A DNA stretch of 64,000 nt from Burkholderia stagnalis. Lineage in GTDB: Bacteria > Pseudomonadota > Gammaproteobacteria > Burkholderiales > Burkholderiaceae. The stretch spans positions 62,001 to 126,000 of the forward strand of contig NZ_CADESW010000018.1 in the NCBI RefSeq assembly GCF_902830275.1, read 5' to 3'. Shown piece after piece: positions 9,700 through 53,766 of this stretch (within the stretch, counting starts at the first letter, position 1; every line of letters begins with the position of its first letter). Position numbers and translations under genes: made by a program. The notes beneath the pieces were generated by a model. The model ran no database searches. It saw only the letters and a list, made by a program, of their open reading frames with translations, and was not told the DNA's origin.

Positions 9700-9714
9700 A
9701 AAAACCTATGCATC

Positions 9715-9836: not shown

Positions 9837-9885
9837 GGCTGGACAATGAAGGCTGACAGACACGGCCGCTTTGCGTTCTATCACT

Positions 9886-12704: not shown

Positions 12705-12708
12705 CGCG

Positions 12709-26569: not shown

Positions 26570-26586
26570 AACGATCCTTTCGTGGC

Positions 26587-26922: not shown

Positions 26923-26968
26923 CGGGGTTCTCCGGTGGGGACGGGAATCGGTTTTAGGTTCGTGACAC

Positions 26969-28652: not shown

Positions 28653-28661
28653 CGTGATTCC

Positions 28662-28919: not shown

Positions 28920-30472
28920 GCTCGTCCTCCATAAAGTCGATCGATTTCGATCTTGAATGCGTTGAAGATTTCCTTGCGCTTCGGCTTGAACTGCGACGTG
29001 ACGAAGCGCGTCTCGGTGCCGAACGGCTGCGGCGCGATGAATGCCTTCACGATCCGCTCGTGCACGGCCAGCGTCTCGTTGAGCTCGGCAACGTGCGCGT
29101 GGATCGCCGCGTGGTCGGCGCCCGCGTCCTGCGGCGAGATCACCGCGACGAGGTACTGCTGGCCCGCGCCGTACAGCACGCACTCCTCGACGCCGACGTG
29201 CGTCTTCACCTGCTCCTCGAGCTTGCGCGTATGCACGTTCTTGCCGTTCGCGAGCACGATCAGGTCGTCGGCGCGGCCGAGGATGTACAGGAAGCCGTCG
29301 TCGTCGAAGCGCGCGAGGTCGCCGGTGCGCACCTCGCCGCTCGGCAGGAAGATCCGCTCGCTCGCGCCCGGCTCGCTGTACAGGTACTGCGTGTTGACCG
29401 GCTCGTCCGCGCCGACGATCAGCACGCCTTCGTCGTCGATCCGCGCGCGCTTGCCGGGAATCAGCCGGCCGACGCTGCCCGTGCGCGCGTGACCCGGATA
29501 GTTCTTGGTCACGATGCACGTCTCGTTCATCCCGTAGCCTTCGAAGATCGGCACGCCCGCTTCCTCGAAGAAGCGCAGCGTGTCGGGGTTCGCCGGCGCG
29601 GAGCCCGTCCACATGTAGCGGATGCGCGGGCCGAGCAGCGCGTCGATCCGCTGCCGGCGCGCGTCGATGCCGGTTTCGCCGGGCGGCGTCAGGCGCTCGA
29701 TGCGCTTCTTCACGCCGTCGTAGAAACCCGGCACGCCCATCACGACCGTCGGCGGCTGCTGGCGGGTCGCCTCCAATGCGAACTCGAACGGCGCGACCGT
29801 CACGTCGTGGCCAAACGTCAGCGCCGAATAGATCCAGTAGCGCTGCTGCAGCAGCGACAGCGGCAGGAACACCAGCACGTCGTCGCCGTCGCCGTGCGCG
29901 TAGAGCTGCTGGACCGCCGCGAGCGACGCGTCGATGCTGCCGGCGCGCGCGGCGAGACCCTTCGGCTCGCCGGAGCTGCCGGACGTGAACTTGATCGTCG
30001 TGACGTCGTCGCGCGCGTACACGGCCGATTCGAACGGCGGCGCGACCGGGTCGACGCCGCTGCCGTCGCCGCAGGCCCGCACGTGCGCGTCGAGCAGTGT
30101 GCGCAGGTCGCGCGCCGGGTCGAACGACGTCGCGCCGTCCGCGTAGACGGCGTCGAGCGCGTACTTGTCGACGAGCGCCTGGTTCGGCTGGAACTTGCCG
30201 AACTCGAAGCCGGCCGTGACGATGCCCGCCTTCAGCGCGGCGAGATCGAGCAGCACCCACGCGAGCCCGTTGCGCGCGACGATGCCGATGCGCGCGCCGC
30301 GCGCCAGGCCAGCCTCGCGCAGGTCGTGCGCCAGCCGCGTGGCCTGCGCATCGAGCTGCGCGTGGGTGAGCACGACGCGGCCGCCCTGCTGGAAGAACGT
30401 GATGCGGTGCGTGTCGCGCTTGCCGCCGTTGGCGGCAACCGTGTTGACGACGCTGATCGGCGCTGCCGTCAC
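28916..30472 (-). CDS. Acyl-adenylating ligase
   Basis: This 518-residue ANL-superfamily enzyme has the AMP-binding loop TIKFTSGSSGEPKG, the EGYGMNET motif and the hinge segment GRADDLIVLANGKNVHTRKLEEQ. It activates a carboxylic acid as acyl-AMP and would load it on the adjacent carrier protein or CoA. The GTG at 30472 overlaps the previous stop. The C-terminal domain keeps the catalytic Lys region (FKPKRKEI). A long-chain fatty or aryl acid is plausible from context; the pocket does not tell. Confidence 0.85.
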   Translation of the reverse strand: MTAAPISVVNTVAANGGKRDTHRITFFQQGGRVVLTHAQLDAQATRLAHDLREAGLARGARIGIVARNGLAWVLLDLAALKAGIVTAGFEFGKFQPNQALVDKYALDAVYADGATSFDPARDLRTLLDAHVRACGDGSGVDPVAPPFESAVYARDDVTTIKFTSGSSGEPKGLAARAGSIDASLAAVQQLYAHGDGDDVLVFLPLSLLQQRYWIYSALTFGHDVTVAPFEFALEATRQQPPTVVMGVPGFYDGVKKRIERLTPPGETGIDARRQRIDALLGPRIRYMWTGSAPANPDTLRFFEEAGVPIFEGYGMNETCIVTKNYPGHARTGSVGRLIPGKRARIDDEGVLIVGADEPVNTQYLYSEPGASERIFLPSGEVRTGDLARFDDDGFLYILGRADDLIVLANGKNVHTRKLEEQVKTHVGVEECVLYGAGQQYLVAVISPQDAGADHAAIHAHVAELNETLAVHERIVKAFIAPQPFGTETRFVTSQFKPKRKEIFNAFKIEIDRLYGGRA

Positions 30473-32340
30473 AGTGCGCCCTCCGTGGCCGTGGCGCGCA
30501 GCGTGTCCGCCGCGTTCGGCAGCACGTCGCCCGCGAGGTCGAGGTAGGTGCCCGCCTCGAAGCCCTTCACGACGAGCCGCTTGGCGTCCGGCGTCATCAG
30601 GTAGTTGACGAGCGCGGTATACAGCGCCTCGAGCCACAGCGTGCGGCGGCGCACGCGCAGCATGTCCTCGGTCGAATACTCGTCGCCTTCGGCGCGCACG
30701 ATGCGCACGTCGTAGAAGCCGCGATAGCGCTGGCCCGCGATGTTCAGCGGCGGACGCGACATGTCGGGGCCCGGCACGCGGATCGAGTACTTCACGCGCG
30801 CGCGGTTGTGCGCGGCGCGGTGCATGTCCGAATGCGACGAGATGTCCGGCACGAGCGGCGGGTAGTACCAGTGGCGCGACGAGCGGATCAGCGGCCGCTC
30901 GAAGTTGCCGGGGATGAAGTGCCAGCGGTTGAACTGCATCCGCTTCTGCACCGAGCTCGCGATCATCTTGCTTTCCGCGTCGCCGTAGCGCGCGATCGTC
31001 TTGTGCGACACGTACGCGGTGAAGAAGCTCGCCGGCGTGAGCGCGTGCACCGTGTCGATCAGCGTCGGCTCGTCATAGGTGACGAGCTGGCCGATGTCGC
31101 GCAGCGAGCTCGACATCCCGTAGTCCGAACCGGTGGCGAGCACGGCGGACGCGACGGTCTTCTCGATCAGGTATTCGATCCAGCTCGTGACGGCCGCGCT
31201 GCCGGCCTCGCACGGCACGCCCGCGACGTCGCGCGCGATCGCCGCGTTCGCGAGCAGCGCCATCGCGACATACTCGGGCGGCGCGAACTCGCCGTGCGGC
31301 GACACGAACTGGCGGAAGTCGTCGCCGAATTCGCGATACCACTGGTCGTGCGCCTCGGTCGACACGGCCGAGTGCAGGATCCGTTCGGTCTTCTGGAAAT
31401 TCAGGCCGTAGATCCAGCGGTAGCGCAGCCACGGCTTGCCGATCGCGCACAGCGTTTGCTCGCGGATCTTCTGCGCGCGCTCGAACAGGTCGAGATCGAG
31501 CGGCACCGCCACCTCGCAGCCGGCGTCCGTGTAGCTCGCCGCGAGCTGGTTGAGGCGGCCGACGACGTCCTGCGCGGTCAGCAGCGCGCCGTTGAATTCC
31601 TCGAAGCGCACCGAGCGGCCCGACAGGAACAGCGCGTTCAGCGCGGCGACGATCAGCACGTCCTCCTCGCTCCATTCCGCATACGGCAGCTCGCGCAGGC
31701 GCGGCAGATGACCCTTGCCGGTCTTGCTGTCGATCAGGTTCGTGAAGCGGTCGATCAGCGCGAAGAAGCGGTCGCCGACGTAGAAGCACACCGATTCCAC
31801 GTGCTCGACGTGATCGATGACTTCCTCGAGGATGCGCGACAGGTTCCCTTCGGCCTGCGCGCGGTCCATCGCGGCACGCACCTCGGCGAAGCTGCGGCGT
31901 TCGATCGCGCGCCATGCGGCGAGCGCCGTGTCGATCTCGGCGAGCACGTCGTCGCCCACCGTCACGGTGCCGAGGTCGACCCAGCTGTCGCGCTCCTCGT
32001 AGGCGACCTTCGGTTCCGACGCCGGGCGGATGTGCAGGCGGCCGAGCGAGTTCACGTACAGCGCGAGCGTCGTGCCGCCCGCGACGTCGGCCGGCGTGTC
32101 GCCGTCGATGCGCAGTTCGCGATGGCGCTGCAGCACGTCGAGCGCCGCGCGTTCATAGGCGCCGAGTGCAAGGCGCGCCTGCCCGAGCGGATAGATGCCG
32201 CCGTGCGTGACCGCGTGCAACGCGACGTCGCAGGCCGGCTGGCCGGCGTGCGCGTCGCCGCGCAGGTACTCCGTCATGTCGAAGCCGTACAGGCTGTGCG
32301 ATTCGCGGTCTTGCGTCGGCGTATGTGCTCTGGGGTCCAT
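30469..32340 (-). CDS. Large cluster protein of unknown function
   Basis: This 623-residue soluble protein is not recognised. It is mainly helical in the centre, with an acidic/His-rich helix (EEVIDHVEHVE) that could bind metal, and a C-terminal part rich in His, Tyr and Arg (FIPGNFERPLIRSSRHWYYPP and following). No signal peptide, membrane segment or nucleotide loop is visible. GAGG precedes the ATG at 32340. It is the first gene after the lux-box-like site and overlaps the ligase gene, so it is a core member of the cluster. A new oxygenase or condensing protein is possible. Confidence 0.6.
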   Translation of the reverse strand: MDPRAHTPTQDRESHSLYGFDMTEYLRGDAHAGQPACDVALHAVTHGGIYPLGQARLALGAYERAALDVLQRHRELRIDGDTPADVAGGTTLALYVNSLGRLHIRPASEPKVAYEERDSWVDLGTVTVGDDVLAEIDTALAAWRAIERRSFAEVRAAMDRAQAEGNLSRILEEVIDHVEHVESVCFYVGDRFFALIDRFTNLIDSKTGKGHLPRLRELPYAEWSEEDVLIVAALNALFLSGRSVRFEEFNGALLTAQDVVGRLNQLAASYTDAGCEVAVPLDLDLFERAQKIREQTLCAIGKPWLRYRWIYGLNFQKTERILHSAVSTEAHDQWYREFGDDFRQFVSPHGEFAPPEYVAMALLANAAIARDVAGVPCEAGSAAVTSWIEYLIEKTVASAVLATGSDYGMSSSLRDIGQLVTYDEPTLIDTVHALTPASFFTAYVSHKTIARYGDAESKMIASSVQKRMQFNRWHFIPGNFERPLIRSSRHWYYPPLVPDISSHSDMHRAAHNRARVKYSIRVPGPDMSRPPLNIAGQRYRGFYDVRIVRAEGDEYSTEDMLRVRRRTLWLEALYTALVNYLMTPDAKRLVVKGFEAGTYLDLAGDVLPNAADTLRATATEGAL

Positions 32341-32714
32341 CGTCAACCTCTCTTCAAGCAAGGAAACTCGATCAAAAAGCGCACCTGCATCGGTTCGACC
32401 GAGCAACGCGCCTGCTGTGGGGTGTGTCGTTTCGACGGGATGAAGCGAGGCGAACGACCGATTCGCACCGGCATCGCTGCCCGGCGCACCCGACCATTCG
32501 CTGGATCGAGATTTCAGCGTGCGGCGTTGATTGCGACAACTACCAAAGTTTGGAGCTGACTCCGCTCGCGCATCGCGCGCGACGCTCGAACGGCGACACG
32601 CGCGACGCAATGCGCGACACACGCATGACACACAGGCGCGCGCCGACGCGCCGCGCATGCGCGGCGTCGGAAGATCGGATAACGAAATGAATGCGCGACG
32701 GCGCGCGCGACGCT
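32341..32714. other. Cluster promoter region
   Basis: This 374-bp gap separates the LuxR gene from the first biosynthetic gene on the same strand. It holds the lux-box-like site and about 200 bases of leader. No small gene was supported. A direct promoter -35/-10 pair could not be identified with confidence. Confidence 0.5.
32538..32557. promoter_or_regulatory. lux-box-like site before the biosynthetic cluster
   Basis: AACTACCAAAGTTTGGAGCT fits the CT-N12-AG pattern of LuxR binding sites, with 7 of 10 symmetric positions. It lies about 200 bases before the first biosynthetic ATG and just downstream of the LuxR gene. It shares AACTACCAAAG with the perfect dyad at 3453. Control by the LuxR protein is inference from pattern and place. 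Confidence 0.6.
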
Positions 32715-33428
32715 TCAGCTCAGCAGCCCGAGCATCGTCGCGCGCACGACGGCGGAGGTCTTGTTGGCGGCCTTGAGCTTCGTCACCGCGTTCTTGACGT
32801 GGAAGTTCACGGTGTCGACGGAGATCACCAGGATCGTCGAGATCTCGCTCGACGTCTTGCCGTCCGCGGCCCACTTGAGCACCTCGACCTCGCGGTCGGT
32901 CAGCCCGCGCTCGGTGTCGGGCGCGAGCTTCGGCATCAGCGTGCCGGTCATTGCCAGGTGCGTCGTGCTGACGAGCCAGCGCATCTTGAACTCGTTCTGC
33001 TCGAGCTCGGCCGGCGTGATCGGGCCGTGCGAGCGCGCGAGCGTCAGCATGCCGGCCACGCCGCAACTGTCGAACGCCGACTGCGTCCAGCCGTGGCGCA
33101 GCCCGTGCTCCTGTGCCTCGAACCACAGGTCGGGCGTATCGGCGAAGAATGCGTCGCTCCACACCACGGGCGCCTGCGAACGGCGCGCATGCTTCACGGT
33201 GGGGTCGATGTCGACATAGCGCGCCTCCTGGTAGCGCGCCTGCCACGCCGGCGGGTAGTTGTTGAGCAAATAGATCCTCGGCCGCGATACCGGCCACGGC
33301 ATGCGCAATCCGTATGCACAGTATTCGTAGCCGAGACTGCGCGCCGCCTCCTCGATACGGCCATAGATCTCCCGCTCCGAACTGGCTCGTTCCAGCCCGG
33401 CCAATAGTTCTTCAACCCAGTTTGTCAT
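32715..33428 (-). CDS. Orphan LuxR-type quorum-sensing regulator
   Basis: This 237-residue regulator has an acyl-homoserine-lactone domain in which W62, Y66, D75, P76 and W90 match the invariant TraR residues W57, Y61, D70, P71 and W85, all shifted by five. The C-terminal LuxR helix-turn-helix is intact (LTDREVEVLKWAADGKTSSEIS to the end). AGGAG precedes the ATG. No luxI is present in the window, so it is a solo that may sense AHLs made elsewhere in the genome or by neighbours. It heads the biosynthetic cluster and is the likely activator. Confidence 0.87.
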   Translation of the reverse strand: MTNWVEELLAGLERASSEREIYGRIEEAARSLGYEYCAYGLRMPWPVSRPRIYLLNNYPPAWQARYQEARYVDIDPTVKHARRSQAPVVWSDAFFADTPDLWFEAQEHGLRHGWTQSAFDSCGVAGMLTLARSHGPITPAELEQNEFKMRWLVSTTHLAMTGTLMPKLAPDTERGLTDREVEVLKWAADGKTSSEISTILVISVDTVNFHVKNAVTKLKAANKTSAVVRATMLGLLS

Positions 33429-33810
33429 CTTGGCTCCTGGTCGCGTCTCCGGTCGTGCCGGCGCGGCAAGCGTGGGCGGATGCGTCGGGCAGACGCACCC
33501 GCCCCACCGACGCGCGCTCTCCCGGACGGGATCGCCGTCCGGCCACGATCGAGAAAAGCACGCCGGGGACTCTGATTCGATGGTGGTAATGCTCGCTCAA
33601 CTACGACGACACGTATTTCGCTTCGGCCTGGCGGAAACGGACAGGTCGCTCGTTCAAGCAACGAGCGGCGACGCAGGGACGTTCCGGCACGCTTTGCGAT
33701 TTATATTTAAAAAAACCTGATTACTGTTTTGGTTTTTGCCAGCAAAAAAGGGCTTTCGTATTGAAAGCGAATCGCTTGGTCGATTCAAATGACATTTTTG
33801 CAGATTTCGC

Positions 33811-34101
33811 ATGTGTCAGGCGCATATGAATCGCTTTTTAGGGGACAGAAACGAAAATATCGCCGAGGATGGCCTAATAATCGCCGGGATTATTGCACGG
33901 ATTAAAAATATTACCGGTTGCTTACACCAGCTTGCCAGCGGCCGTCAAGATGGTTTTCTTGGTATCCAGTTTCAAACGGAGGCGAATTTAGCCCGGAATC
34001 ATATCGGCCAAGTAAATATCTTTATCAGTAAGGTAGCGTACAAGTCTGCGAAAAAAGCAAGCATCCGGATAATCCCGCACATTTCGTATGGACTTCACTA
34101 A
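33811..34101 (+). CDS. Possible small protein in AT-rich gap
   Basis: A 96-codon frame (starting at 33811 or at the ATG at 33826) with a lysine- and isoleucine-rich product (IIAGIIARIKNITG). No ribosome site, family match or partner gene was seen. The base composition matches the AT-rich gap, so the frame may be chance or the relic of an acquired gene. Confidence 0.2.
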   Translation: MCQAHMNRFLGDRNENIAEDGLIIAGIIARIKNITGCLHQLASGRQDGFLGIQFQTEANLARNHIGQVNIFISKVAYKSAKKASIRIIPHISYGLH

Positions 34102-34300
34102 TGTGTCAGTCGACCTGTTTTTACTTAGAGTAATCCGTCAATTCAAGAATCGCACCGCATAAACTGACGCAGCGCGTAAAGATCGCAGTACCGGTTCCAT
34201 TTTTTCAGGCGCGGCATTCGCTATTCGCAAATCCGCATTTGAATATGCCGACGCCACGGCAGGCCGCGAAACTAACGATCGGGAATGACGAAGACGCGAC

Positions 34301-34331
34301 GGCGCCGGCCCCCGCGGCACGGGCCGGCGCC
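34301..34331 (-). terminator. Hairpin after the AzlCD genes
   Basis: An 11-bp perfect stem (GGCGCCGGCCC with GGGCCGGCGCC) and a 9-base loop begin 22 bases after the azlD stop on the minus strand. There is no clear T-tract on that strand, so it may be a processing or pause site and not a full terminator. Confidence 0.4.
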
Positions 34332-34353
34332 CCGTCGGCGAAGGTGCTCGCCT

Positions 34354-34689
34354 TCAGATCGACGCGATCAGGTGCCCGCCGGCCCCGAAGTGCAGCATCA
34401 GGAAGTAGACCGTCGACGACAGCACGACCGACAGCAGCACGCCCACGCGCGGCAGAAACGTAATCATGCCGAGCAGCAGCGCGAACGCGGCCACGGCCTC
34501 GGCCGGGTGGGTCTTCACCTCGCTGAGGAAGCAGTACGCCACCAGGTTGACGAAGACGGCGATCGGCAGAAGCTGGCGCAGCGTCTGCTGGCGCCGGTTG
34601 TCGAACGGCAGCCGCACGATGCTCGGAATGACGCGCACCAGCACGCTGACGCCGAGCAGCAGGAGTGTTCCCAGCATCGCGTTATTCAT
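34354..34689 (-). CDS. azlD: AzlD-family small exporter subunit
   Basis: This 111-residue protein with four hydrophobic segments matches the AzlD half of the LIV-E branched-chain amino-acid exporters. It overlaps azlC by eight bases, the normal arrangement. Partner of AzlC in moving valine-like amino acids or related small molecules out of the cell. Here it is the last gene of the radical-SAM operon, which makes a peptide-derived or modified amino acid a tempting substrate. AzlCD pairs are also common on their own, so the link is inference. Confidence 0.82.
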   Translation of the reverse strand: MNNAMLGTLLLLGVSVLVRVIPSIVRLPFDNRRQQTLRQLLPIAVFVNLVAYCFLSEVKTHPAEAVAAFALLLGMITFLPRVGVLLSVVLSSTVYFLMLHFGAGGHLIASI

Positions 34690-35410
34690 GGCCGATCATC
34701 CCGTCCGTTTTCACCAGCAGCCAATAGACGACCGCGATCCCCGGAATCCAGAAATACACGGGCCCGAGCAGATACTGCAGCACGAAGACGGCCACGAAGC
34801 CGATCGCGATGGCCTTGCGCGCCGACAGCGCGGCCGGCTGCCGCGCGCGTTCCGCCCGGCGCGCGCGCACGAACGCGTAGATGTTCAGCAGCCCCAGCGC
34901 CAGCAGGATCGCGCTGACGGGATAGGTCACGCCGGCCAGCGTCGACTTGACCACCGGCGGCAGGAACGCCGCCAGCGCGACGCCGGCCGCCGTCGACAGG
35001 CACCAGAACGCCGTGATCGTCCCGCGGATCACGAAGCGGCTGGCCACCCCGTCCGACTGCTTCTCGGTGGCATAGGATTCGTCCGCCAGCCAGTGGGCCA
35101 GCGGCACCTTCCCGAGCAGGTTGATCTTCAGCGGCGCGGTGGCCGTCAGCGACATCGGCACGTAACGCAGGTTCATGCTCAGGATCACGAGAAAGGCCAG
35201 CCCCAGCGACGAGATGTCGATGCCGCGGGACGCGAACCCGAGATACGCGAACTGGCCGCTGCCGGTGAAGCCGATGAGGCTCATCAGGAACACTTCGAAC
35301 GGCGTCCAGTTCAACTGCGCGGCGAGCACGCCGAACAGCACGCCGATCGGCGTGAGGGCCAGCCCGACCGGAATGATGCGCCACAGCGCGGAGGTCACGA
35401 CGTGCTTCAC
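34682..35410 (-). CDS. azlC: AzlC-family exporter subunit
   Basis: This 242-residue membrane protein matches AzlC/YgaZ: early PVGLALTPIGVLFGVLAAQ and the signature MSLIGFTGSGQFAYLG (about residues 40-60), then NLRYVPMSLT. It starts with GTG at 35410 overlapping the radical-SAM stop (GTGA), with GGGGAGG before it. It forms the LIV-E exporter with AzlD. Direct translational coupling to a radical-SAM enzyme supports a shared pathway. Confidence 0.85.
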   Translation of the reverse strand: MKHVVTSALWRIIPVGLALTPIGVLFGVLAAQLNWTPFEVFLMSLIGFTGSGQFAYLGFASRGIDISSLGLAFLVILSMNLRYVPMSLTATAPLKINLLGKVPLAHWLADESYATEKQSDGVASRFVIRGTITAFWCLSTAAGVALAAFLPPVVKSTLAGVTYPVSAILLALGLLNIYAFVRARRAERARQPAALSARKAIAIGFVAVFVLQYLLGPVYFWIPGIAVVYWLLVKTDGMIGHE

Positions 35411-37176
35411 GACACCTCCCCGACGGAATGCATCGACGCGGCGGACAGCGCGCCGTTGTGCCCTTGCTCCGGACGGCACAGGTTCCGGGCCGAGAGCGGC
35501 TCGCCGACGAGGTCCGTCAGGAAGGTTTCGTCGAGGTAATGCTTGATGTTCAGCATCGTTTCATGGAATACGTTGTCGAGATGATCGAGGCCCTGCCGGA
35601 TGGCTTCGGCATAGGTTGCGTACTGCGTGATGAAGCCGTCCCGCGTCAGGTCATGCGCCTCCGCCTGCTCCACCAGCGCCAGGAAGAAATCGGCGGAGCG
35701 CCGCTGCACCGCGGCCTTCGCGGCAAACAGCGCGGCGACCTCGCACTGCTGGACCATGTCCCCCTCGAGCAGGTTGCCGCCGATCACCGACAGCGTGCGG
35801 GCCATGTTGATGTCGATGTCCCGCATCGTCGAATCTTCCCTGCGCAGCAGGTCGACGTCGGCCAGGTCCGTGAGCAGGTCGGCGATGCCCTGCACATGCT
35901 TGTTGACGAACGCGATGCTGTCGACCTTGTAGTGCGTATATTCGGGCGTCAGCATGCCGCTGTCGGCAAGATCCTTGTTCATCTCCAGCCCCGGATACGC
36001 ATGCACGCGGCAACTCATGTTGTAGAGCGTCGCGTGCTGGATGCGCAGCAGGAAGCTGACGTTGCGGCGCAGGTCGCGGAACGTCGTATACGGATTGAAC
36101 ATCAGGAACCCGCTCGAACTCGTCACGACGTTGTATTTCTGGAAGATCTCGACCGACGACAGGTTCTTGCTGGCGCTCGACCCTTTGTTGAGCAGCTTGA
36201 GCTGGTCGTCCGAGCCGGCCTCGATGCCCATCAGCACGGAGATGAGGCCCGACTGCCGGAGCAGGTCCACCAGTTCGTCCTGCCCGTTGAACGAATCGGT
36301 GCGGCAAAAGATCTCGTACTCGACGCTCAGCCCCTTGCGGATGATCCGCTCCGCGAATTCGCGCACGCGCGGCAGCCCGCGCTTGGGGCCCGGGAAGTTC
36401 TCGTCGCCGAAGTACACCACGGGGTAGATGTCGAGCCCCTGGTACTTGTTCAGCAGCATCTCCAGCTCGTCGACGATGTTCTCCGCCGAGCGCGGCCGCC
36501 AGCGCGCGCCGCCGCCGATGTTGAAGAATTTGTACGCATTGCAGAACGAACACTTGGCCGGGCAGCCGCGGCTGCCGAGCATCGCGATCGCGGGCCGCAG
36601 CCCCGCCTTCAGCGCGCGTTCGAGCGTGTCGCGCGCCGGGAACGGCAGCGTGTCGAGATCCTCGATCGCCGGGCGGTCCTTGTTCTGCACGGCCTTGCCC
36701 GACGCATCGCGATACGCGACGCCCAGCACGTCGGCCAGCGGCTGGCCCGAGCCGTTGAAGGTCAGCTCGCAGAGTTCCAGGAACGTGACTTCGCCTTCGC
36801 CGCGCACGATGAAGTCGATCTCGGGGTGGGTCTCGAGGATCTCGACGGTCGCATAGGTCGCATGCTCGCCGCCCAGCACGACCCGTGCGTGGGGGTGCAC
36901 GCCCTTCACGAGCCGGGCGAGCTTGATCGCCTCCTCGAAGGTGTTGTATTCGAGCGTGATGCCGATCAGGTCGGGCGCGGCCGCGCGCACCTCGTCGAAG
37001 ATCTGCTCGGTGGACAGCGCCAGCGCATAGCCGTCGATGATCTCGACGTTCGAGTAGCCGAACTTGCGCAGGTACGCCGCGAGATAGCCAAGGCCGAGGT
37101 GCTCCGTCGGGTTGTTGTGCAGATACTCCGCCGACTTCTTGTGGGCGTTGACCAGGATGATCTTGTTGGCAGGCAT
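35407..37176 (-). CDS. B12-binding-domain radical SAM enzyme
   Basis: This 589-residue enzyme has an N-terminal cobalamin-binding-type Rossmann domain (IILVNAHKKS to about residue 150) and a radical SAM domain with the CxxxCxxC motif C205-C209-C212 in SRGCPAKCSFC. The C-terminal 200 residues are helical and shared with its two paralogues here. Such enzymes methylate unreactive carbons or rearrange skeletons, with methylcobalamin and SAM. ATG at 37176 follows GGAG, 20 bases after the previous gene. The frame is open much further upstream, but that part is not coding for this protein. Confidence 0.88.
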   Translation of the reverse strand: MPANKIILVNAHKKSAEYLHNNPTEHLGLGYLAAYLRKFGYSNVEIIDGYALALSTEQIFDEVRAAAPDLIGITLEYNTFEEAIKLARLVKGVHPHARVVLGGEHATYATVEILETHPEIDFIVRGEGEVTFLELCELTFNGSGQPLADVLGVAYRDASGKAVQNKDRPAIEDLDTLPFPARDTLERALKAGLRPAIAMLGSRGCPAKCSFCNAYKFFNIGGGARWRPRSAENIVDELEMLLNKYQGLDIYPVVYFGDENFPGPKRGLPRVREFAERIIRKGLSVEYEIFCRTDSFNGQDELVDLLRQSGLISVLMGIEAGSDDQLKLLNKGSSASKNLSSVEIFQKYNVVTSSSGFLMFNPYTTFRDLRRNVSFLLRIQHATLYNMSCRVHAYPGLEMNKDLADSGMLTPEYTHYKVDSIAFVNKHVQGIADLLTDLADVDLLRREDSTMRDIDINMARTLSVIGGNLLEGDMVQQCEVAALFAAKAAVQRRSADFFLALVEQAEAHDLTRDGFITQYATYAEAIRQGLDHLDNVFHETMLNIKHYLDETFLTDLVGEPLSARNLCRPEQGHNGALSAASMHSVGEVS

Positions 37177-37196
37177 GGGGTCTCCGTCTGGCCGGT

Positions 37197-38891
37197 TCAA
37201 GCGGCATGTGCCGATTCGGCGGGCGCTTGCCCGGCCGGCGCGGCACGGCCTTCCAGCGCCGCGTTCGCGCGCGCCAGGAAGCGCGCATAGGACGATTCGA
37301 GCGCGTCGATCCGCTCGGACAGCGTGTCGAAGAACCGGTCCTTCTCCGGCCCGCGTTCGATATCGGGATCGTTGCGCTCGAAGCGCTCCATCGCGTTCAT
37401 GAAGAAGTCGAAAGCGAGGGTCTGGATGTCCTTCTGCGCGCGGTCGATCAGCGCGGACTCGTCCCAGTCGCAGGCGATGCCGATGCGCGACAGCTCGTAC
37501 GACATGTTCGCGAAGTTGAATTCCACGAACCGGCCGACGGTGTCGAGCCGCTGCACGACGTCGTTCTGCGAGATGTCCATGTAGGCCGCGAAGCGGGCCA
37601 CCCGCGCATCGCGGAACTTGTATTCGTACACGCCGTCGTATTCGTCCGCGCCGGTCAGCAGCCCCTGCTCGCGCAGGTACGGGACGAACTCGTTGCCGCC
37701 ATACACGTCCAGCCGCGTCGACAGGTTCCACACCGACGCATGGTGGATCTTGCGCAGGTAGAGCGCATTGCGGCGCAGCGACGTGAACGAGCTGTACGGC
37801 AGGAACATGATGAAGCCGCTGGAGGGCGTCGTCACGTTGTTGGTCTTCAGGTTGTCCAGCGCCTGGTCGATCTGGTGGACGGTGACGGCCTTGCGGAACA
37901 GCTTGAGCTCCTGGTCGTCGGACGCCTCGATGCCCATGAACACGCGCACCATGCCGGCCTCGCGCAGGCGGCGCACGAGTTCGTAGTCGTCGTGGAACGT
38001 GTCCGCGCGCAGGAAGGTTTCGAACATGATGCGGACGTCGCGCCGGATGATCTCGTCGGCGAGCTCGTACGCATGGCGCCGCGCCTTGTTGCCCGGGCCG
38101 ATGAACGTGTCGTCGTAGAACAGGATCACCGGGTCGGCGTCGGCCGCATAGCGGTCGACCAGCCCCTCGATCTCGTCGACCACGTTCGACGCGGAGCGGT
38201 GGCGCCACGGGCGGCCGCCCCCTTCGTTGTATACGTGGGACGCATTGCAGAACAGGCAGCGCGCGTAGCAGCCGCGGCTGCTCAGCACGGGGATGGCCGG
38301 CTGGATGCCCTTGCGAACGGCGCGCGCCAGCACCTGCCGGTCCGGGAACGGCAGCGCGTCGAGGTTCTCGATCGCGCCGGTCGCCGGAATCCTGACGACG
38401 GAGCCGTCCTGCGAGCGGTAGAGCAGCCCGCCGATCTGCAGCCGCGTGCCGACGCCATCCTTCAGGTAGCGGTAGAGGGCGATCATCGAGAATTCGCCCT
38501 CGCCGCGAATCACGAAATCGATCTCGGGGACTTTCGCGAGCACCTTTTCGCCGCAGTAGGTGAAGTGAAGCCCGCCGAGCACGGTGCGCGTGCCGGGGCA
38601 GCGGCGCTTGACCTCGCGCGCGATCTCGATCGCGTCGCCCGCGTTGCGCGACAGCGCCGTGATGCCCACGAGCACCGGATGCTCCCGTTCGCACAGCGCG
38701 GCGATCTCGCTCGCGCCGACCTTGTCGAGGTCGCAATCGACGATCAGCGTACGTGCGCCGGCCGTCGCGAGCGCGCTCGACAGGTACGCCAGCGCGAGAT
38801 TCTCGCAGGTGAACTCCGCCGATTCGGCGCTGCCGCTCGGTGGATTGCGGGGATTCACCAACAGCACATCGAAGTCGTTCGACAGGTCCAT
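37197..38891 (-). CDS. B12-binding-domain radical SAM enzyme
   Basis: This 564-residue enzyme is a paralogue of its neighbours: N-terminal cobalamin-type domain (FDVLLVNPRNPPSG), then SSRGCYARCLFC with C208, C212 and C215. The N-terminal domain is the most divergent of the three. The start at 38891 is chosen because CAGGA lies at the right distance; two upstream in-frame ATGs up to 38909 have none. It is the first gene after the hairpin that follows the peptide gene, so its expression probably depends on read-through. Confidence 0.88.
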   Translation of the reverse strand: MDLSNDFDVLLVNPRNPPSGSAESAEFTCENLALAYLSSALATAGARTLIVDCDLDKVGASEIAALCEREHPVLVGITALSRNAGDAIEIAREVKRRCPGTRTVLGGLHFTYCGEKVLAKVPEIDFVIRGEGEFSMIALYRYLKDGVGTRLQIGGLLYRSQDGSVVRIPATGAIENLDALPFPDRQVLARAVRKGIQPAIPVLSSRGCYARCLFCNASHVYNEGGGRPWRHRSASNVVDEIEGLVDRYAADADPVILFYDDTFIGPGNKARRHAYELADEIIRRDVRIMFETFLRADTFHDDYELVRRLREAGMVRVFMGIEASDDQELKLFRKAVTVHQIDQALDNLKTNNVTTPSSGFIMFLPYSSFTSLRRNALYLRKIHHASVWNLSTRLDVYGGNEFVPYLREQGLLTGADEYDGVYEYKFRDARVARFAAYMDISQNDVVQRLDTVGRFVEFNFANMSYELSRIGIACDWDESALIDRAQKDIQTLAFDFFMNAMERFERNDPDIERGPEKDRFFDTLSERIDALESSYARFLARANAALEGRAAPAGQAPAESAHAA

Positions 38892-38945
38892 ATGGCGCAT
38901 CCTGCTCATGGGAAAGGGACGCCCGAGCGCGGCCGCGCAAGGGCG

Positions 38946-38984
38946 AAAAAGAGGTTACGTCGCGGTGCACCGCGACGTAACCTC
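38946..38984 (-). terminator. Strong hairpin after the precursor peptide gene
   Basis: A perfect 15-bp stem (GAGGTTACGTCGCGG at 38951 pairing with 38970-38984) with a TGCA loop starts 11 bases after the peptide stop on the minus strand and is followed by TTTTT. It has all features of an intrinsic terminator, yet lies inside the operon 59 bases before the next gene. In RiPP operons such partial terminators keep precursor mRNA in excess over the enzymes. Confidence 0.85.
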
Positions 38985-38995
38985 AGGCAACGCGC

Positions 38996-39163
38996 TTACT
39001 CGCCGTCCTTGCGGACTTCGACGTCGCCTGCCTGGTCGGCTTGCGCGTGTTGCGCGGTTTCCTGCAGCTTGGCGGTCTTGACCTCGTTCAGCTTCTTCCA
39101 GATTTCGGTCGACAGCTTCACGTTCTGGTCATTGCCTTTGGGGGCCATGAGATTGATTGCCAT
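38996..39163 (-). CDS. Candidate RiPP precursor peptide
   Basis: This 55-residue peptide reads MAINLMAPKGNDQN at its start and ends in AGDVEVRKDGE. It is hydrophilic, rich in Lys, Gln, Glu and Asp, with no Cys and a single Trp (STEIWKKLNEV). AAGGAG lies before the ATG at 39163; the frame stays open to 39247 but that part looks like untranslated leader. It is flanked by radical SAM genes and followed by a strong hairpin. The N-terminal 35 residues could be a leader helix and the last 15-20 residues a core. No known precursor family is recognised. Confidence 0.7.
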   Translation of the reverse strand: MAINLMAPKGNDQNVKLSTEIWKKLNEVKTAKLQETAQHAQADQAGDVEVRKDGE

Positions 39164-39243
39164 GACTTCTCCTTGGTTGACGCGTTGATGAAGTGGCGCG
39201 AGCCACACGGAATTGCTCGCCAGCCGGCTTCGGCCGGACAGGT

Positions 39244-40932
39244 TCACCGCCCTTGTCCGGCTGGCGAAGCAACAGCAAGGTCGTCAGCGGAGCGTTCGCT
39301 GATCAACCAATCATGTAAGCCATGCAGCGCCGTGCTGAATTCGGTCTCGAGACTGTCCAGGGAAGCGCCCAGTTCGCCCAGGTAGGATTGCCGGTCGCCG
39401 GCGATCGCCCCGGCGTCGCTGCCGCCCTCGAAGTGCGCGATGGTCTGCAGGAAATACTCGACGTTCAGGCCGTTGATCGATTGCAGCCGCGCCATCGCCG
39501 GCGCCGCGATGCGGTTGGCCTTCGCCTCGTCCAGCCCGTGCAGTTCGACCGCGTTGAGAATGCGGTTCAGCTCGGTGGACACATGGCGCGGCAGCGCGTT
39601 GTCCCGCACGATTTCCACTTCGTCGTTGAGCTGCAGCAGGTGGTCGGACAGGCGCCCCATCATCGGTTCCTGGAAGCGGTACGAATACACCTTGTTGGAC
39701 TTGTCGTAGCCGTCCAGCAGGCCTTTGTCGCGCAGCTCGTCCACCAGCTTCACGCCGGGAAAGAGCTGCAGCCGCTGCGACAGGTTCCAGAACGACGCAT
39801 AGCCGAAGCGCGCGAGCAGCCGGGCCGTGGTGCGGATGCCCTGCACCGTGCTGTACGGGTTGAACATGATCACGCCCGCGGTCGGCCCGAGCACGCGATG
39901 GCGCCGCAGCAGGTCGAGGCCCTCGGTGAGCCGTTCGGTGGTGATGTCCTTCCCGTAGAAACCGAGATCCTGCTGGTCGAACGATTCGATGCCGATGAAG
40001 GCCGCCTCCAGCCCGGCGCGCTTCAGGTCCGTCACGACCTCGTCGTCGTCGCCCTTGAGCGAATCGCCGCGCAGGTAAACCTCGAACGGCATGGCCACGC
40101 CGCGGCGGACGATTTCGTGCGCGAGGTCGCGCGCCCATGCCTTCGAGCGATTGCTGCCGTCGATGAAGTTGGCATCGTAGAAATAGAGCTTCTCGACGTT
40201 GCCCTTGAGGAAGTAGTGCTCGTAGAGATACTCGAGCTCGTCGACCACGTTCTTGACCGTGCGCCGCCGGATGGCCGCGCCGCCGCCCAGCCGCAGGTAC
40301 TTGTTCGCATTGCAGAACGTGCACTTGAAGTTGCAGCCGCGCTGCGCGATCACGCCGATGGCGGTCTTGAGATCGCGCCTGCGGCAGTAGTCGAGCGTCG
40401 CGCGGTCGGCCAGCGGCAGCCGGTCCAGGTCTTCGATGCCGGGACGGTCAGGATTCTTGAAGAGAATGTTGGTGCGCACGTCGCGGAAATAGACGCCCGC
40501 GACGCCCAGCAGCTTGGGCGCCTTCGCCACCAGCTCCACGACGGCCTCTTCGCCCTCGCCGCGCACCACCGCCTGGATGGCCGGATGCCGGGCGAGAATT
40601 TCCTCGGCCGCATACGTGCAGTGCTCGCCGCCGACGAAAACATAGACGTCGTCGAGCACCTGGCGCGCCAGCTCGGCCACTTCCACCGCCGAGTCGAAGT
40701 TCAGGTAGTTCGCGGTCAGCCCGACGAAGTCCGGCTCGAACGCGAGAAACGCGCCCACCGCCGCGTCGTTGGACAGGTTGTGCGCGTAGCAGTCGAGAAT
40801 CCGCACGACGTGCCCGTCCTTCTTGAGCGCGGCGGACAGCAGGCCCAGCCCAAGATGCTCCATGATCGAGTAATGATCCTTCTCCCGATCGACGATCTTG
40901 ATGTTGGGGTTGATGAGAAGTACCTTAGCCAT
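39244..40932 (-). CDS. B12-binding-domain radical SAM enzyme
   Basis: This 562-residue enzyme has an N-terminal cobalamin-type domain (KVLLINPNIKIVD) and a radical SAM domain with C200, C204 and C207 in QRGCNFKCTFC. It is clearly related to the enzymes at 35407 and 37197 along the whole length, so the three arose by duplication. It overlaps the M16 peptidase gene by eight bases and precedes the peptide gene by 80. The C-terminal helical region could bind the precursor peptide. Confidence 0.88.
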   Translation of the reverse strand: MAKVLLINPNIKIVDREKDHYSIMEHLGLGLLSAALKKDGHVVRILDCYAHNLSNDAAVGAFLAFEPDFVGLTANYLNFDSAVEVAELARQVLDDVYVFVGGEHCTYAAEEILARHPAIQAVVRGEGEEAVVELVAKAPKLLGVAGVYFRDVRTNILFKNPDRPGIEDLDRLPLADRATLDYCRRRDLKTAIGVIAQRGCNFKCTFCNANKYLRLGGGAAIRRRTVKNVVDELEYLYEHYFLKGNVEKLYFYDANFIDGSNRSKAWARDLAHEIVRRGVAMPFEVYLRGDSLKGDDDEVVTDLKRAGLEAAFIGIESFDQQDLGFYGKDITTERLTEGLDLLRRHRVLGPTAGVIMFNPYSTVQGIRTTARLLARFGYASFWNLSQRLQLFPGVKLVDELRDKGLLDGYDKSNKVYSYRFQEPMMGRLSDHLLQLNDEVEIVRDNALPRHVSTELNRILNAVELHGLDEAKANRIAAPAMARLQSINGLNVEYFLQTIAHFEGGSDAGAIAGDRQSYLGELGASLDSLETEFSTALHGLHDWLISERSADDLAVASPAGQGR

Positions 40933-42199
40933 TCGCTACCCCATGGCAGATGAGCGGCGGCGACCGGAGCACCGCTTCGGTCACCTCGTGCAGGCTCTGC
41001 GGCGTCACGCCCCGGATGAAGTCCAGGTCGTCCTCGTAGTCGAAGTACGCGTCGAACCACATCTCGTGCTTGAGCAGCCGCATCAGCCGGTTGCGCGGAT
41101 CGTCGAGCCGCATCAGCAGCGTGCGCATCAGCGCCTGCCGGGCTTCGTCCTGCACGACACGGTCCTGCACGATCGCCGGCATGGCCGCCGCGAGCTCGAA
41201 CACATGGTCCATCACCCGCTCGAGCTTGTCGTACGCCACCATCCCGCGGATGATGAGATGGCCGTGATCCTTGAACAGATGGCACTCGGAATTGACCGCA
41301 TACAGCAGCGCCTTGTCGACGCGCAGCGCGTTGTAGAGCACCGAATGCTCGTCCTCGCCGAAGATCAGGCTCATCGCATAGAGCGACACGCGGCGCTCGT
41401 CGAAACGCGGGAACGCCGGGTAGCCGAGCATGAAATAGCCGACGCCCAACGACGTCGGAATCGGCGCGCGGCCCGCCGCCAGGCCGTGCGTCGGCATAGG
41501 GTCGGCCGCCGCCGCGGCCGCCGTCTCACGCGCGCGCGGCAGCACCCCGAGCGTGCGCTCGACCGAGGCCAGCAGCCCGGTCGGCTGCAGGTCGCCGACC
41601 AGCGCCACCGCGATCTTGCCGCGCCGGTTGTCGTCGGCGATCGCGCGATGCACGTTCGCGCCGGCCAGCGCCGCGACGTCGGCCACGCGCCCGCCGATGG
41701 GGCGCCACATCCGCTCGTCGCCGTAGGCAGCCTTCAGGAACTCGTCGTCGATCCGGCTGATCTCGCTGCTCTCGAGCGTCGCGACCTCCTCGACGAGCAC
41801 GGCGCGCTCCTGCTCGATCGCCGCGTCGTCGAGGGGGCGCGGATTCAGGAATGCGTCGAGCCATTCGCCGAGCACCGCGGCGTCCTGTTTCAGCGCGCAC
41901 ACGACGAAGTAGGTTTCGTTTCGCTCGGTGAAGGCCTCGACCGACAGCACCCTCGCCTTGGCGGGCCCGATCATCCGGTTGACCTGGGCCACCCGCGCGT
42001 GCTCGCAGAAATGGGCGAGGCCCGCTTCGCCGTGCGGATCGTCATAAGCGCCCCGGCCGATGCCCACGCCCATCGAGATCGCATGCAGGCCCGGCGCCGC
42101 TTCCCAGATCAACGACACGCCGTTGACGACCGAGCGCACGCCCCGGCCCTGCGGGACGACGGGATGGCGCTTCGCGTCGAGGCTCAGCACGTTTTGCAT
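40925..42199 (-). CDS. M16-family zinc peptidase
   Basis: This 424-residue protein matches M16B peptidases. The inverted zinc motif HFCEH (H63, E66, H67) is followed 76 residues after H67 by E143, the expected third ligand. The second half is the inactive-like domain. M16 proteins such as PqqF/PqqG cut or hold RiPP precursors. ATG at 42199 has no ribosome site of its own, but a 22-codon frame with a good site overlaps it, so coupling is likely. First main gene of the radical-SAM operon. Confidence 0.82.
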   Translation of the reverse strand: MQNVLSLDAKRHPVVPQGRGVRSVVNGVSLIWEAAPGLHAISMGVGIGRGAYDDPHGEAGLAHFCEHARVAQVNRMIGPAKARVLSVEAFTERNETYFVVCALKQDAAVLGEWLDAFLNPRPLDDAAIEQERAVLVEEVATLESSEISRIDDEFLKAAYGDERMWRPIGGRVADVAALAGANVHRAIADDNRRGKIAVALVGDLQPTGLLASVERTLGVLPRARETAAAAAADPMPTHGLAAGRAPIPTSLGVGYFMLGYPAFPRFDERRVSLYAMSLIFGEDEHSVLYNALRVDKALLYAVNSECHLFKDHGHLIIRGMVAYDKLERVMDHVFELAAAMPAIVQDRVVQDEARQALMRTLLMRLDDPRNRLMRLLKHEMWFDAYFDYEDDLDFIRGVTPQSLHEVTEAVLRSPPLICHGVANG

Positions 42200-42252
42200 G
42201 AGGAGAGGCGCGCTGACGATTCGGGACACGCGGCAACACGAACACGAGCCAT
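42184..42252 (-). CDS. 22-codon leader ORF overlapping the M16 gene
   Basis: ATG at 42252 follows CAGGAGACCGCC and opens a 22-codon frame (MARVRVAACPESSARLSSCK then TC) that ends 16 bases inside the M16 gene. It has the best ribosome site in the area. It may couple translation of the peptidase, encode a small peptide with three Cys, or be the true M16 start if a frameshift or sequencing error is present. Confidence 0.4.
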   Translation of the reverse strand: MARVRVAACPESSARLSSCKTC

Positions 42253-42925
42253 GGCGGTCTCCTGTCGAGTAAGTGGGAATCCCGAATGGCCTTCGGTCGG
42301 CGGACACGCGTCGCAATCGACGGCGTCAAGACGCGATCGGGAAACTCGACGCCTTGGCGCTTTCTCGTTGTTTCGCCTGACAGGGGGCCCGGGGCATGCA
42401 ACAGTCTTCTTGCTCTTTTAATGCCTGATGCGGTAATGCGCTCGGCCGCTTCCTCATTGCCGCCTGCGACTGCGCGCAGGCGCGCCAATCGCGTTCATGC
42501 CGATTCATTCATCTTCGGCAATTCGCGGAGAGGCCGACCTGGGGGGACATGCTATCCGATCTGCATCGAAAATAAAGCCATGCGTGCGAAAAAATTCATT
42601 TAGCGACGCACGATTTGATTTAGGTAAATAAATTCGAATGGAACCGATTCCGCGCCGGACCCGCATTTGAATCAATGCAGCGCGGCATCGCAATGCGCTG
42701 ATTGGCTGGCTAAATTGTTGAGCTTTATAAAACGATTGATGAAATCGTTGCCGCGTTCGCCAATTGCCGACGACGTTTTACGCCAATTCGTGCAAATACT
42801 CTAAATCCGCATTCGACGGGGCGTTCATTCCTCGACCCTGCTTTAAATCGCCCGAAATAACACGCGCGCCCTGCCTTTCGGATTCCCGCCGGGAGCGTCC
42901 ATTTGCCGTCGCGTCATAGGCAGAA
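42253..42925. other. Promoter region and AT-rich gap
   Basis: This 673-bp gap lies upstream of the radical-SAM operon and downstream of the MFS gene, both on the minus strand. GC falls from 42.5 to 42.85 kb. It should hold the operon promoter. A 16-codon frame at 42778-42828 (MNAPSNADLEYLHELA) was seen but its ribosome site (GAGGA) touches the ATG, so it is not annotated as a gene. Confidence 0.45.
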
Positions 42926-44287
42926 TCAGGCGCTTCGACCGGGCGCCGCCTCGGCGGTGCGCGCGGTGGCCGGGAAGTCGAGATGCCCGTGCCAGTCGCC
43001 GAAGTAGACCTTGCGGCCATAGCGCAGGGCCGTGACGACACCGAGCACGCCGGCGCCGAACGTGAACTGCACGCACACCCACGCGCTCGCCGGCATCAGC
43101 GCGACGAGCGCCAGCGACGCGGCGCTGGCCCAGATCGCGTAGGTCAGGTTGTACGTGAACGAAATGCCCGACACGCGCATGGCGGTCGAGAACAGCGCAA
43201 CCATGACGGACGGCACGGCCCCGACCACGCCCGACAGCAGTCCGGCAAACGCATAGGCCAGCGCGATGGCGACGCCGTGGCCGCCGCCGGCGAGGCTCGC
43301 ATAGAGCGCCGCCGTGCCGACCGGCAGCAGCGCGCTGTAGAGCGCCACGGCCTTCCACGCGCCGATGCGATCGACGACGAGGCCCGCGATCACGCAGCCG
43401 ATGTTCAGAAACACGATGCCGACGCTGCTGATCGCGAACGTCTCGCGGGCCGACAGGCCGAAGCGCTGCTGCATGAAGGTCGGCGTCACGATCACGAGCA
43501 CGACGACGGCCGACGTCAGCACGGCGGTGAGCGCGACGGCCGGCATGAACGCGCTGCGCTGCGCGCGGATCACCTCGCGCAGCGGGAACGCGACGGCTGC
43601 CGTGCGGCGGCCCTGCATCTCGAGAAAGCGCGGCGTCTCGCTGAGCCGGCGGCGCATCCAGACCCCGACGAGCCCGAACAGCCCGCCGAGAATGAACGGA
43701 ATGCGCCAGCCGTAATCGAGCATCTGGGCAGGGCTGAAGCATCGTTCGAGCACCGCGCCCGTCAGCGCGCCGAGCAGATAGCCGAGCGTGAGGCCGGCCT
43801 GCAGCATGCCGAGCACGTAGCCGCGGCGCCCGCTGCGCGCATGCTCGGCCACGAACGCCCACGCGCTCGGCACCTCGCCGCCGACGGCTGCGCCCTGCAG
43901 GATCCGCATCGCCAGCAATACGAGCGGCGCGAGATAACCGATCTGCGCGTACGTCGGCATGATGCCGATCGCGAAGCACGGCAACGCCATCAGCAGCACG
44001 GTCAGGCTGAACACGCGCTTGCGGCCGCTGCGATCGGCGAAATGCGCCATCCAGATGCCGCCGAGCGGGCGCGCGAGGTAGCCGGTGGCGAAAATGCCGA
44101 AGCTTTGCAGCAGCTTCAGCCATTGCGGCATGTCGGGGGGAAAGAACACGCGGCTCAGCGTCACCGCGAAGAAGAAAAAGATGATGAAGTCGTAGACCTC
44201 GAGCGCGCCTCCGAGCATCGACAGCACCAGCATCTTGCGGTCGTGATGCGCCGGGCGTGGCGAAGCCGGCTGCGCGTCGATCGTCAT
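42926..44287 (-). CDS. MFS transporter, metabolite:H+ symporter type
   Basis: This 453-residue membrane protein belongs to the MHS group of MFS (ProP, KgtP, ShiA-like). HFADRSGRKRV is the loop 2-3 motif, and ILQGAAVGGEVPSAWAFVAEHA the typical MHS signature after the fourth segment. It would import an organic acid or osmolyte with protons. AGGAA lies before the ATG at 44287. The C-terminus has a short hydrophilic tail. It is not clearly tied to either neighbour. Confidence 0.85.
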   Translation of the reverse strand: MTIDAQPASPRPAHHDRKMLVLSMLGGALEVYDFIIFFFFAVTLSRVFFPPDMPQWLKLLQSFGIFATGYLARPLGGIWMAHFADRSGRKRVFSLTVLLMALPCFAIGIMPTYAQIGYLAPLVLLAMRILQGAAVGGEVPSAWAFVAEHARSGRRGYVLGMLQAGLTLGYLLGALTGAVLERCFSPAQMLDYGWRIPFILGGLFGLVGVWMRRRLSETPRFLEMQGRRTAAVAFPLREVIRAQRSAFMPAVALTAVLTSAVVVLVIVTPTFMQQRFGLSARETFAISSVGIVFLNIGCVIAGLVVDRIGAWKAVALYSALLPVGTAALYASLAGGGHGVAIALAYAFAGLLSGVVGAVPSVMVALFSTAMRVSGISFTYNLTYAIWASAASLALVALMPASAWVCVQFTFGAGVLGVVTALRYGRKVYFGDWHGHLDFPATARTAEAAPGRSA

Positions 44288-44509
44288 GGGAAATTCCTGG
44301 TATGGGTTCGGAGAGCGGGATTCGGCGGCGAGGATAGCAAGAACCGTTCGATCCGGCAAAGCCGGTTGCCGATGATCGAATCGCGCGCCGTTTCACATCC
44401 CGCTCGTCGAGCGGGGTGGATCATATGTGGGCCGTGACACGAGGAAGCTTCGGAGTCCGTGGCGAATCGCCGCGCCTTCCGGCCCGGTGATGCGCATCGG
44501 GCCGACCCT

Positions 44510-47145: not shown

Positions 47146-47207
47146 TCGACCGACGCCGGCCGCTCGCGCGGTTGCCTTGCATCGCAGGGCGGCCGCGCCC
47201 TCGCCTG

Positions 47208-53747: not shown

Positions 53748-53766
53748 CGTCGTGTTCCTTGCTCCG

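Follow-up and report, generated by a model that had tools for sequence, protein, structure and literature searches.

Gene Content of the Operon

A 64,000-nucleotide stretch of the Burkholderia stagnalis genome (positions 62,001 to 126,000 of contig NZ_CADESW010000018.1, referred to below in its whole length as the window; the host genome comprises 8.03 Mb) carries on its minus strand a compact operon at positions 34354-42199. In the order of transcription, it encodes an M16-family metallopeptidase, a B12 (cobalamin)-binding radical S-adenosylmethionine (SAM) enzyme (rs1), a 55-residue peptide, a terminator-like hairpin, two further B12-binding radical SAM enzymes (rs2 and rs3), and the predicted exporter subunits AzlC and AzlD. 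This set probably represents a gene cluster for a ribosomally synthesized and post-translationally modified peptide (RiPP), in which the three enzymes would modify the peptide before the M16 peptidase cleaves it and the product leaves the cell. The first-pass annotation of this DNA, made from the sequence alone, had described a RiPP-like operon, and all the genes that it named are present, intact, and in the order given there, as judged from open reading frame (ORF) coordinates and Pfam matches. With the exception of the peptide, all proteins of the operon exceed the Pfam cut-offs of their own families.

The same region is carried, with a 99.3% match over 29.7 kb, by plasmid plas2 of B. stagnalis strain YJ-2, whose annotation bears on several gene starts. 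The M16 gene starts at 42199 and not, as had been proposed, at 42252, the latter position opening a separate 22-codon ORF. Adjacent ORFs overlap by 8 nucleotides (M16 and rs1), 4 nucleotides (rs3 and azlC), and 8 nucleotides (azlC and azlD), the last overlap disappearing if azlD takes the YJ-2 start at 34677. A gene for a major facilitator superfamily (MFS) transporter of the metabolite/H+ symporter type (42926..44359; Pfam MFS_1, 90.1 bits), overlooked in the first-pass annotation, lies upstream on the same strand and is co-inherited with the operon.

B12-Binding Radical SAM Enzymes

The three enzymes, rs1 (39244..40932), rs2 (37197..38909, or from 38891 in the YJ-2 annotation), and rs3 (35407..37176), all on the minus strand, exceed the Pfam cut-offs for both the B12-binding domain (74.5, 66.7, and 75.9 bits, respectively) and the Radical_SAM domain (53.8, 60.1, and 65.3 bits). 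The CxxxCxxC motif is intact and invariant in all three enzymes of both species that carry the operon (see below), and the CxxxCxFCNA and GGG motifs are common to rs1, rs2, and rs3; Pfam and the alignment agree here with the earlier description of three paralogs with a cobalamin-type domain and an unbroken cysteine motif. The identity to rs1 is 32-33% for both rs2 and rs3. A tree of 61 rows groups the three enzymes in a single clade (support 98/93), and the paths that connect them measure about 1.9-2.1 changes per column, so that they appear to have a single origin among the rows sampled, followed by a long divergence; this tree omits rows with matches to no more than 300 profile positions as well as outside rows beyond the best 55. 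Nearest among the outside rows are sequences of an unnamed class of the same phylum and of one genome of the window's class, together with sequences from Armatimonadota, Bacillota, Calditrichota, and an unclassified bacterium.

Among solved structures, the enzyme profile matches best OxsB (E-value of 2.5e-33) and a protein labeled "Methyltransferase TokK" (1.6e-14), both of them B12 radical SAM enzymes. The best NCBIfam model for each of the three proteins is the cyclase BchE (117-179 bits), which falls so far under its cut-off of 481 bits that their reaction is not readable from family membership. In the rs1 structural model, which is of modest quality (mean predicted local distance difference test score, 64.5), the C-terminal part consists of helices only. 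Cobalamin-dependent radical SAM enzymes are mostly linked to methylation, but several of them catalyze other reactions (PMC13142503). The earlier proposal of serial methylation draws on the enzyme class: cross-linking by a B12 radical SAM enzyme is known from biphenomycin-like biosynthesis (PMC12257519), and the best-scoring model is that of a cyclase.

Putative Precursor Peptide and the Hairpin That Follows It

The small gene between rs1 and rs2 (38996..39163, minus strand) encodes, as had been noted, a Cys-free peptide of 55 residues; it has the sequence AAGGAG closely upstream, and the YJ-2 annotation lists it as a hypothetical protein (WP_155628734.1). Its counterpart in Burkholderia sp. 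SRS-46 has the same length and a retained ribosome-binding sequence, and the two peptides share 49 of 55 residues with no indel. The six substitutions are confined to positions 36-46, which leaves residues 1-35 and 47-55 without any change. The ratio of nonsynonymous to synonymous substitution rates (dN/dS) is 0.30 for the peptide gene, compared to 0.13 for rs1, 0.13 for rs2, 0.21 for rs3, 0.25 for M16, 0.26 for AzlC, and 0.12 for AzlD. The reading frame is conserved between the two species at hand. It is very improbable that the peptide gene is a chance ORF: it is short, has no match in Pfam, NCBIfam, PHROGs, or PDB sequences, and differs between the two species (11 of 168 positions) nearly as much as the preceding gap does (7 of 80; the following gap differs at 13 of 86), but its frame, length, and ribosome-binding sequence are kept at a dN/dS of 0.30, its codons 1-35 contain 3 synonymous and no nonsynonymous changes, and it is annotated in YJ-2.

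Directly 3' of the peptide stop codon lies a hairpin (38951..38984, minus strand) with a 15-bp stem, a 4-base loop, and a run of five T residues, which the first-pass annotation had overlooked and which has the features of a terminator or attenuator. It has the longest stem among 12 terminator-like sites in 12 kb (shuffled sequences yielded 9.0 such sites), and its predicted folding energy is -29.6 kcal/mol in the window and -31.7 kcal/mol in SRS-46 (z-scores of -7.5 and -7.3, respectively). The two species share all 15 base pairs, in two cases because both partners have changed, and shifting the partner strand by 1-3 columns lowers the pairing to 40-57%. A predicted terminator likewise follows the bottromycin precursor gene btmD, where it has been proposed to damp the expression of downstream genes, and such attenuators are considered a common strategy in RiPP clusters (PMC7113386). 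Since a strong attenuator stands directly after its gene, the 55-residue peptide would be produced in excess.

The peptide lacks Tyr, and its first eight residues (MAINLMAP) are uncharged and include I, L, M, A, A, and P within the invariant segment 1-35. It is mildly amphipathic over residues ~6-31, the hydrophobic moment peaking at 0.33-0.45 in 18-residue windows starting at positions 6-14. These features fit, without being decisive, a particular version of the RiPP explanation that is less likely than not, in which MAINLMAP would hold the C-methylated core and the helix and tail would form a follower removed by the M16 peptidase. Such an orientation would match that of BtmD, whose N-terminus becomes the product and whose follower is thought to be removed (PMC5103208), and the gene layout also resembles that of bottromycin: the radical SAM methyltransferase gene btmC, the precursor gene btmD, a predicted terminator, the remainder of the operon, and the MFS exporter gene btmA transcribed apart (PMC7113386). 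On the other hand, the operon encodes neither a YcaO protein nor an M17 peptidase according to Pfam, the invariant C-terminal segment DVEVRKDGE could equally well be the core if the leader comes first, as is usual, and aliphatic residues are also spread along the rest of the peptide (V15, L17, I21, L25, V28, L33, V48, and V50).

M16 Peptidase and Transporters

The peptidase (40925..42199, minus strand) scores 41 bits with Peptidase_M16 and 41 bits with the M16 C-terminal domain, both over the Pfam cut-offs, and combines these two domains with an HxxEH motif (HFCEH, residues 63-67) and a downstream Glu. Its closest solved relative is 3hdi (75 bits), in which ERKVVFEEI aligns with ERAVLVEEV (residues 131-139) of the window's protein. 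While the HFCEH motif is as first described, this alignment favors E138 over the previously named E143 as the third zinc ligand, E138 being the Glu of the segment that presumably binds zinc. M16 proteases take part in the maturation of class III lanthipeptides (PMC10885120).

AzlC (34682..35410; 82.8 bits) and AzlD (34354..34689; 28 bits), encoded by adjacent genes on the minus strand, are predicted to be the large and small subunits of an AzlCD-type exporter. Both exceed their Pfam cut-offs, AzlD belonging to the family named "branched-chain amino acid transport protein," but the NCBIfam azlC equivalog model is not reached (21.1 compared to 332.35 bits). The MFS protein matches TIGR00883 at 263.8 bits, under the cut-off of 443.45 bits. 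At an E-value of 1e-150 or lower, it has relatives in 3 of 65 Burkholderia genomes; only the copies in the window and in SRS-46 are at least 93% identical, and the third, 67% identical, occurs in a genome of the genus where the operon was not found. That third copy (locus L132, positions 1789-13244) lies beside genes for a methylaspartate mutase E chain, two ATP-grasp proteins, ketopantoate hydroxymethyltransferase, ketopantoate reductase, and an aminotransferase/GntR protein, and the locus looks like a small-molecule cluster. The AzlD family and these neighbors give a hint that the product of the operon may be small and amino-acid-like, transporters being weak guides to substrate.

The pyrroloquinoline quinone (PQQ) pathway uses a small peptide with Glu and Tyr, the SPASM radical SAM enzyme PqqE, and an M16-family peptidase. 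By analogy, the RiPP explanation could take another form, in which the peptide serves as a scaffold, one or a few of its residues are modified and excised by the M16 peptidase, and AzlCD exports a small amino-acid-like compound. The assignment of AzlC and AzlD to the Pfam branched-chain amino acid transport family points in this direction, as does the amino-acid-type product suggested by the neighbors of the 67% identical MFS relative. Transporter families guide poorly to substrates, however, and the PQQ chemistry itself does not fit, since the operon has three B12-binding enzymes with no SPASM domain and the peptide has no Tyr; this form is unlikely.

Distribution of the Cluster

Close relatives of rs1 (E-value of 1e-60 or lower), the peptide (0.01 or lower), the M16 peptidase (1e-40 or lower), and AzlC (1e-40 or lower) were each found in 2 of the 65 Burkholderia genomes, always the same two, the B. 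stagnalis genome of the window and that of Burkholderia sp. SRS-46. The co-occurrence of the enzymes with the peptide, M16, and AzlC genes, which had been suggested as a check, is thus all-or-none within this set of genomes; the thresholds used select close relatives, and in many genomes distant members of the M16, AzlC, and MFS families came up as candidates at first look. The SRS-46 DNA is 92.5% identical to that of the window over 34357-42235 and 93.3% identical over the MFS region, 42944-44385. Beyond these shared regions, no alignment between the SRS-46 stretches examined and the window was obtained to the left or to the right, and in SRS-46 a 7-8-kb insert separates the MFS gene from the operon. 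Because both are shared while their flanks do not align, the MFS gene and the operon act as a unit that occurs in two different contexts.

Several searches extended beyond the genus. A search with rs1 yielded 1 of 399 genomes of the order (the window's own) and 4 of 398 genomes of the phylum (three of them at 29-33% identity), and a search with rs3 yielded 2 of 398 genomes of the family. A six-sequence profile (A1) yielded 2 of 369 genomes of the class, the second at 234 bits, and 9 of 48 genomes of another class of the phylum, at no more than 293 bits compared to ~946-968 bits for the window's own enzymes; in all these searches, at most three candidates per genome were scored in the results shown. 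Together, the genome searches amount to 1,938 genome look-ups in one phylum, with many genomes repeated. A scan of all GTDB species contigs with two short patterns gave 254 stretches and 137 relatives, the best one outside Burkholderia being 33% identical; the best 80 of the 137, representing 79 loci, were kept, and divergent clusters may be missed owing to the short patterns and this selection. IMG/VR contributed 8 relatives from 62 stretches (32% identity at best). Among plasmids, rs1 had matches in 24 records and M16 in 28, those with at least 60% identity coming in each case only from B. stagnalis YJ-2, and the peptide matched YJ-2 plus one chance hit at an E-value of 8. At an E-value of 1e-4, matches to M16, AzlC, AzlD, and the peptide were confined to Burkholderia loci, although a large share of the remaining loci is short or truncated; this comparison covered the loci other than those from the rs3 family, profile A1, and IMG/VR searches. 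In all, there are three copies of the cluster (window, YJ-2, and SRS-46), two of which are independent. Loci that keep the enzymes but lack the peptide gene, which would speak against a peptide substrate, were not found among the close orthologs, a weak test with only two independent loci to compare, and distant relatives of single enzymes (~25-35% identity) occur in other settings.

Proposed Pathway and Known Systems

An encoded, conserved candidate precursor beside putative modifying enzymes, as expected of a RiPP cluster, is found in both independent loci, and the conserved peptide frame, the co-occurrence in 2 of 65 genomes, and the hairpin all support the RiPP-like nature of the operon, within the limits set by two loci. 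In the proposed pathway, the three anciently diverged paralogous enzymes would act on side chains of the peptide, the likeliest chemistry being the transfer of methyl groups onto unactivated carbons. The M16 peptidase would then free the modified part from the recognition part, and AzlCD, the co-inherited MFS carrier, or both may export the small product.

Several observations weigh against this explanation. The conservation and the co-occurrence both stem from one divergence of ~0.16-0.3 synonymous changes per site, the dN/dS of the peptide gene exceeds that of each of the other six genes, and its DNA divergence is not far below that of the gap before it. With only two sequences, the covariation in the hairpin does not exceed that expected from shuffling (119 of 500 shuffles were as high). 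The three enzymes stay far under the cut-offs of the RiPP models that they match: rs3, rs2, and rs1 score 100.1, 94.7, and 54.8 bits with TIGR03975 (RiPP maturation radical SAM C-methyltransferase; cut-off, 281.85) and 108, 80.5, and 94.1 bits with ApyD (cut-off, 750). A RiPP recognition element, a frequent though not universal part of RiPP pathways, was found in the operon proteins neither in Pfam at an E-value of 0.01 nor in NCBIfam, and the modest-quality rs1 model shows nothing but helices at its C-terminal end. AzlCD transporters have been described for amino acids and are not known to carry peptides. Finally, the surroundings of two outside relatives of the enzymes (loci L019 and L020) contain no M16 or AzlC match; both include transketolase and SPASM radical SAM genes, accompanied by a methyltransferase gene in one and a sugar epimerase gene in the other.

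The company of transketolase, sugar, or methyltransferase genes at L019 and L020 is what would be expected if the enzymes acted on a free small molecule, the peptide being an accessory subunit or a regulator. This alternative is fairly improbable for the operon, where a peptidase is co-inherited and a strong hairpin stands directly after the peptide gene, and where the operon and MFS proteins contain no adenylation or carrier-protein domain recognized by Pfam.

Within the RiPP explanation, bottromycin offers the nearest working model. Its biosynthesis involves two YcaO enzymes. Three radical SAM methyltransferases carry out four C-methylations of bottromycin (PMC5103208), and the two systems are alike, by description, in devoting three cobalamin-class radical SAM enzymes to one precursor. 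In the bottromycin cluster, the precursor gene also has its own transcription start (PMC7113386). Pfam gave no YcaO match for any of the seven operon proteins or for the MFS protein, and the block shared with SRS-46 contains no M17 peptidase or cytochrome P450, having an M16 peptidase and AzlCD instead. As it lacks a YcaO match and has a peptidase of another family, the cluster is not a bottromycin cluster. It is conceivable, though rather doubtful, that it represents a YcaO-free RiPP class of bottromycin-like layout, in which an N-terminal aliphatic core would be C-methylated by the three enzymes, M16 would remove the helical follower, and AzlCD would export the product. That product would then be, on the same doubtful footing, a linear aliphatic peptide bearing many C-methyl groups or even a branched amino acid of a non-standard kind in free form.

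Other known systems share single elements with the operon. The PQQ pathway has in common with it a small peptide, radical SAM chemistry, and an M16-family peptidase. ApyD (a B12 radical SAM enzyme) and ApyO (a P450) of aminopyruvatide biosynthesis are among the weak NCBIfam matches, but the best scores are 108 bits (cut-off, 750) and 127.1 bits (cut-off, 525), respectively, no MNIO match was seen in the proteins scanned, and the P450 gene is absent from the SRS-46 stretch examined. Biphenomycin-like (pbs) pathways also employ a B12 radical SAM enzyme on a peptide (PMC12257519), whereas the operon encodes no MNIO, arginase, or TldD-type protease and its peptide has no aromatic motif. In class III lanthipeptide maturation, the M16 peptidase is the two-protein complex PttP1/PttP2 (PMC10885120), compared to a single gene here, and the operon has no lanthipeptide synthetase match. 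The earlier statement that no characterized pathway has this gene set holds for the exact combination of M16, three B12 radical SAM enzymes, peptide, and AzlCD, which is not described among the matches listed from the open-access literature (subscription papers are mostly outside it), but three radical SAM methyltransferases in one pathway were already known from bottromycin (PMC5103208). Of the papers listed, the one that names both azlC and azlD places them in a variable region of insect-symbiont genomes with no relation to this operon (PMC9088363).

Should the peptide be the substrate, the compact operon would lend itself to the study of how B12 radical SAM enzymes choose carbon atoms, since its three related enzymes presumably each target a different position in the same short peptide. 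A RiPP pathway based on such enzymes would also be connected for once with both an M16 peptidase and an AzlCD exporter. Mining tools built on known families would easily miss a cluster of this rarity, whose proteins do not reach the cut-offs of the named RiPP enzyme models.

Upstream Region and Genomic Surroundings

The region upstream of the operon (42235..42793, minus strand), which presumably contains its promoter, is 76.9% identical in DNA to that of SRS-46, with only 2 mismatches in the 50 bases at 42603-42652 (counted by eye). No sigma-70-type promoter was predicted within 32500-44500 (shuffled mean, 1.8), and no cobalamin riboswitch or other known RNA was matched by Rfam at the gathering score within the window. 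The 22-codon upstream ORF (42184..42252, minus strand) overlaps the M16 start, possibly for translational coupling; its SRS-46 counterpart has 43 codons and likewise overlaps the M16 start. Because the sequence is poorly conserved, this ORF is unlikely to encode a second precursor.

Membership in the pathway of the window's neighboring genes for a LuxR regulator, a P450, a TldD pair, and AMP-binding and C45 proteins is not supported, since they have no matches around the SRS-46 operon: in the SRS-46 stretches searched (L018 and L103, the rest of that genome being unsearched), only an AMP-binding protein with 25% identity was found. In SRS-46, the gap between the MFS gene and the operon is occupied by a TOMM (thiazole/oxazole-modified microcin)-type locus (L023, positions 1562-7985) that encodes YcaO/SagD (289.2 bits; cut-off, 219.25), SagB (139.6 bits; cut-off, 78.4), and a SagC-like protein whose TOMM leader-binding domain exceeds its cut-off. 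A small ORF in this locus (1562-1873), with a Cys-rich C-terminal region, looks like a TOMM precursor gene; the locus has no match in the window.

A 92-base tRNA-Arg (gcg) predicted by ARAGORN at 30013-30104 of the window was not reported by Rfam at the gathering score and is probably false. At ~47200-54900, a TldD/PmbA pair, which has no match in the SRS-46 stretches examined, adjoins a dipeptide ABC transporter; TldD/E proteases act in other RiPP pathways (PMC10885120). Beyond the LuxR gene, the region at ~25250-32340 encodes a 623-residue protein with no Pfam match, an AMP-binding protein, an 85-residue protein, a GNAT protein, a C45/AAT peptidase, FdxA, and an MFS transporter and is possibly a second small-molecule cluster.

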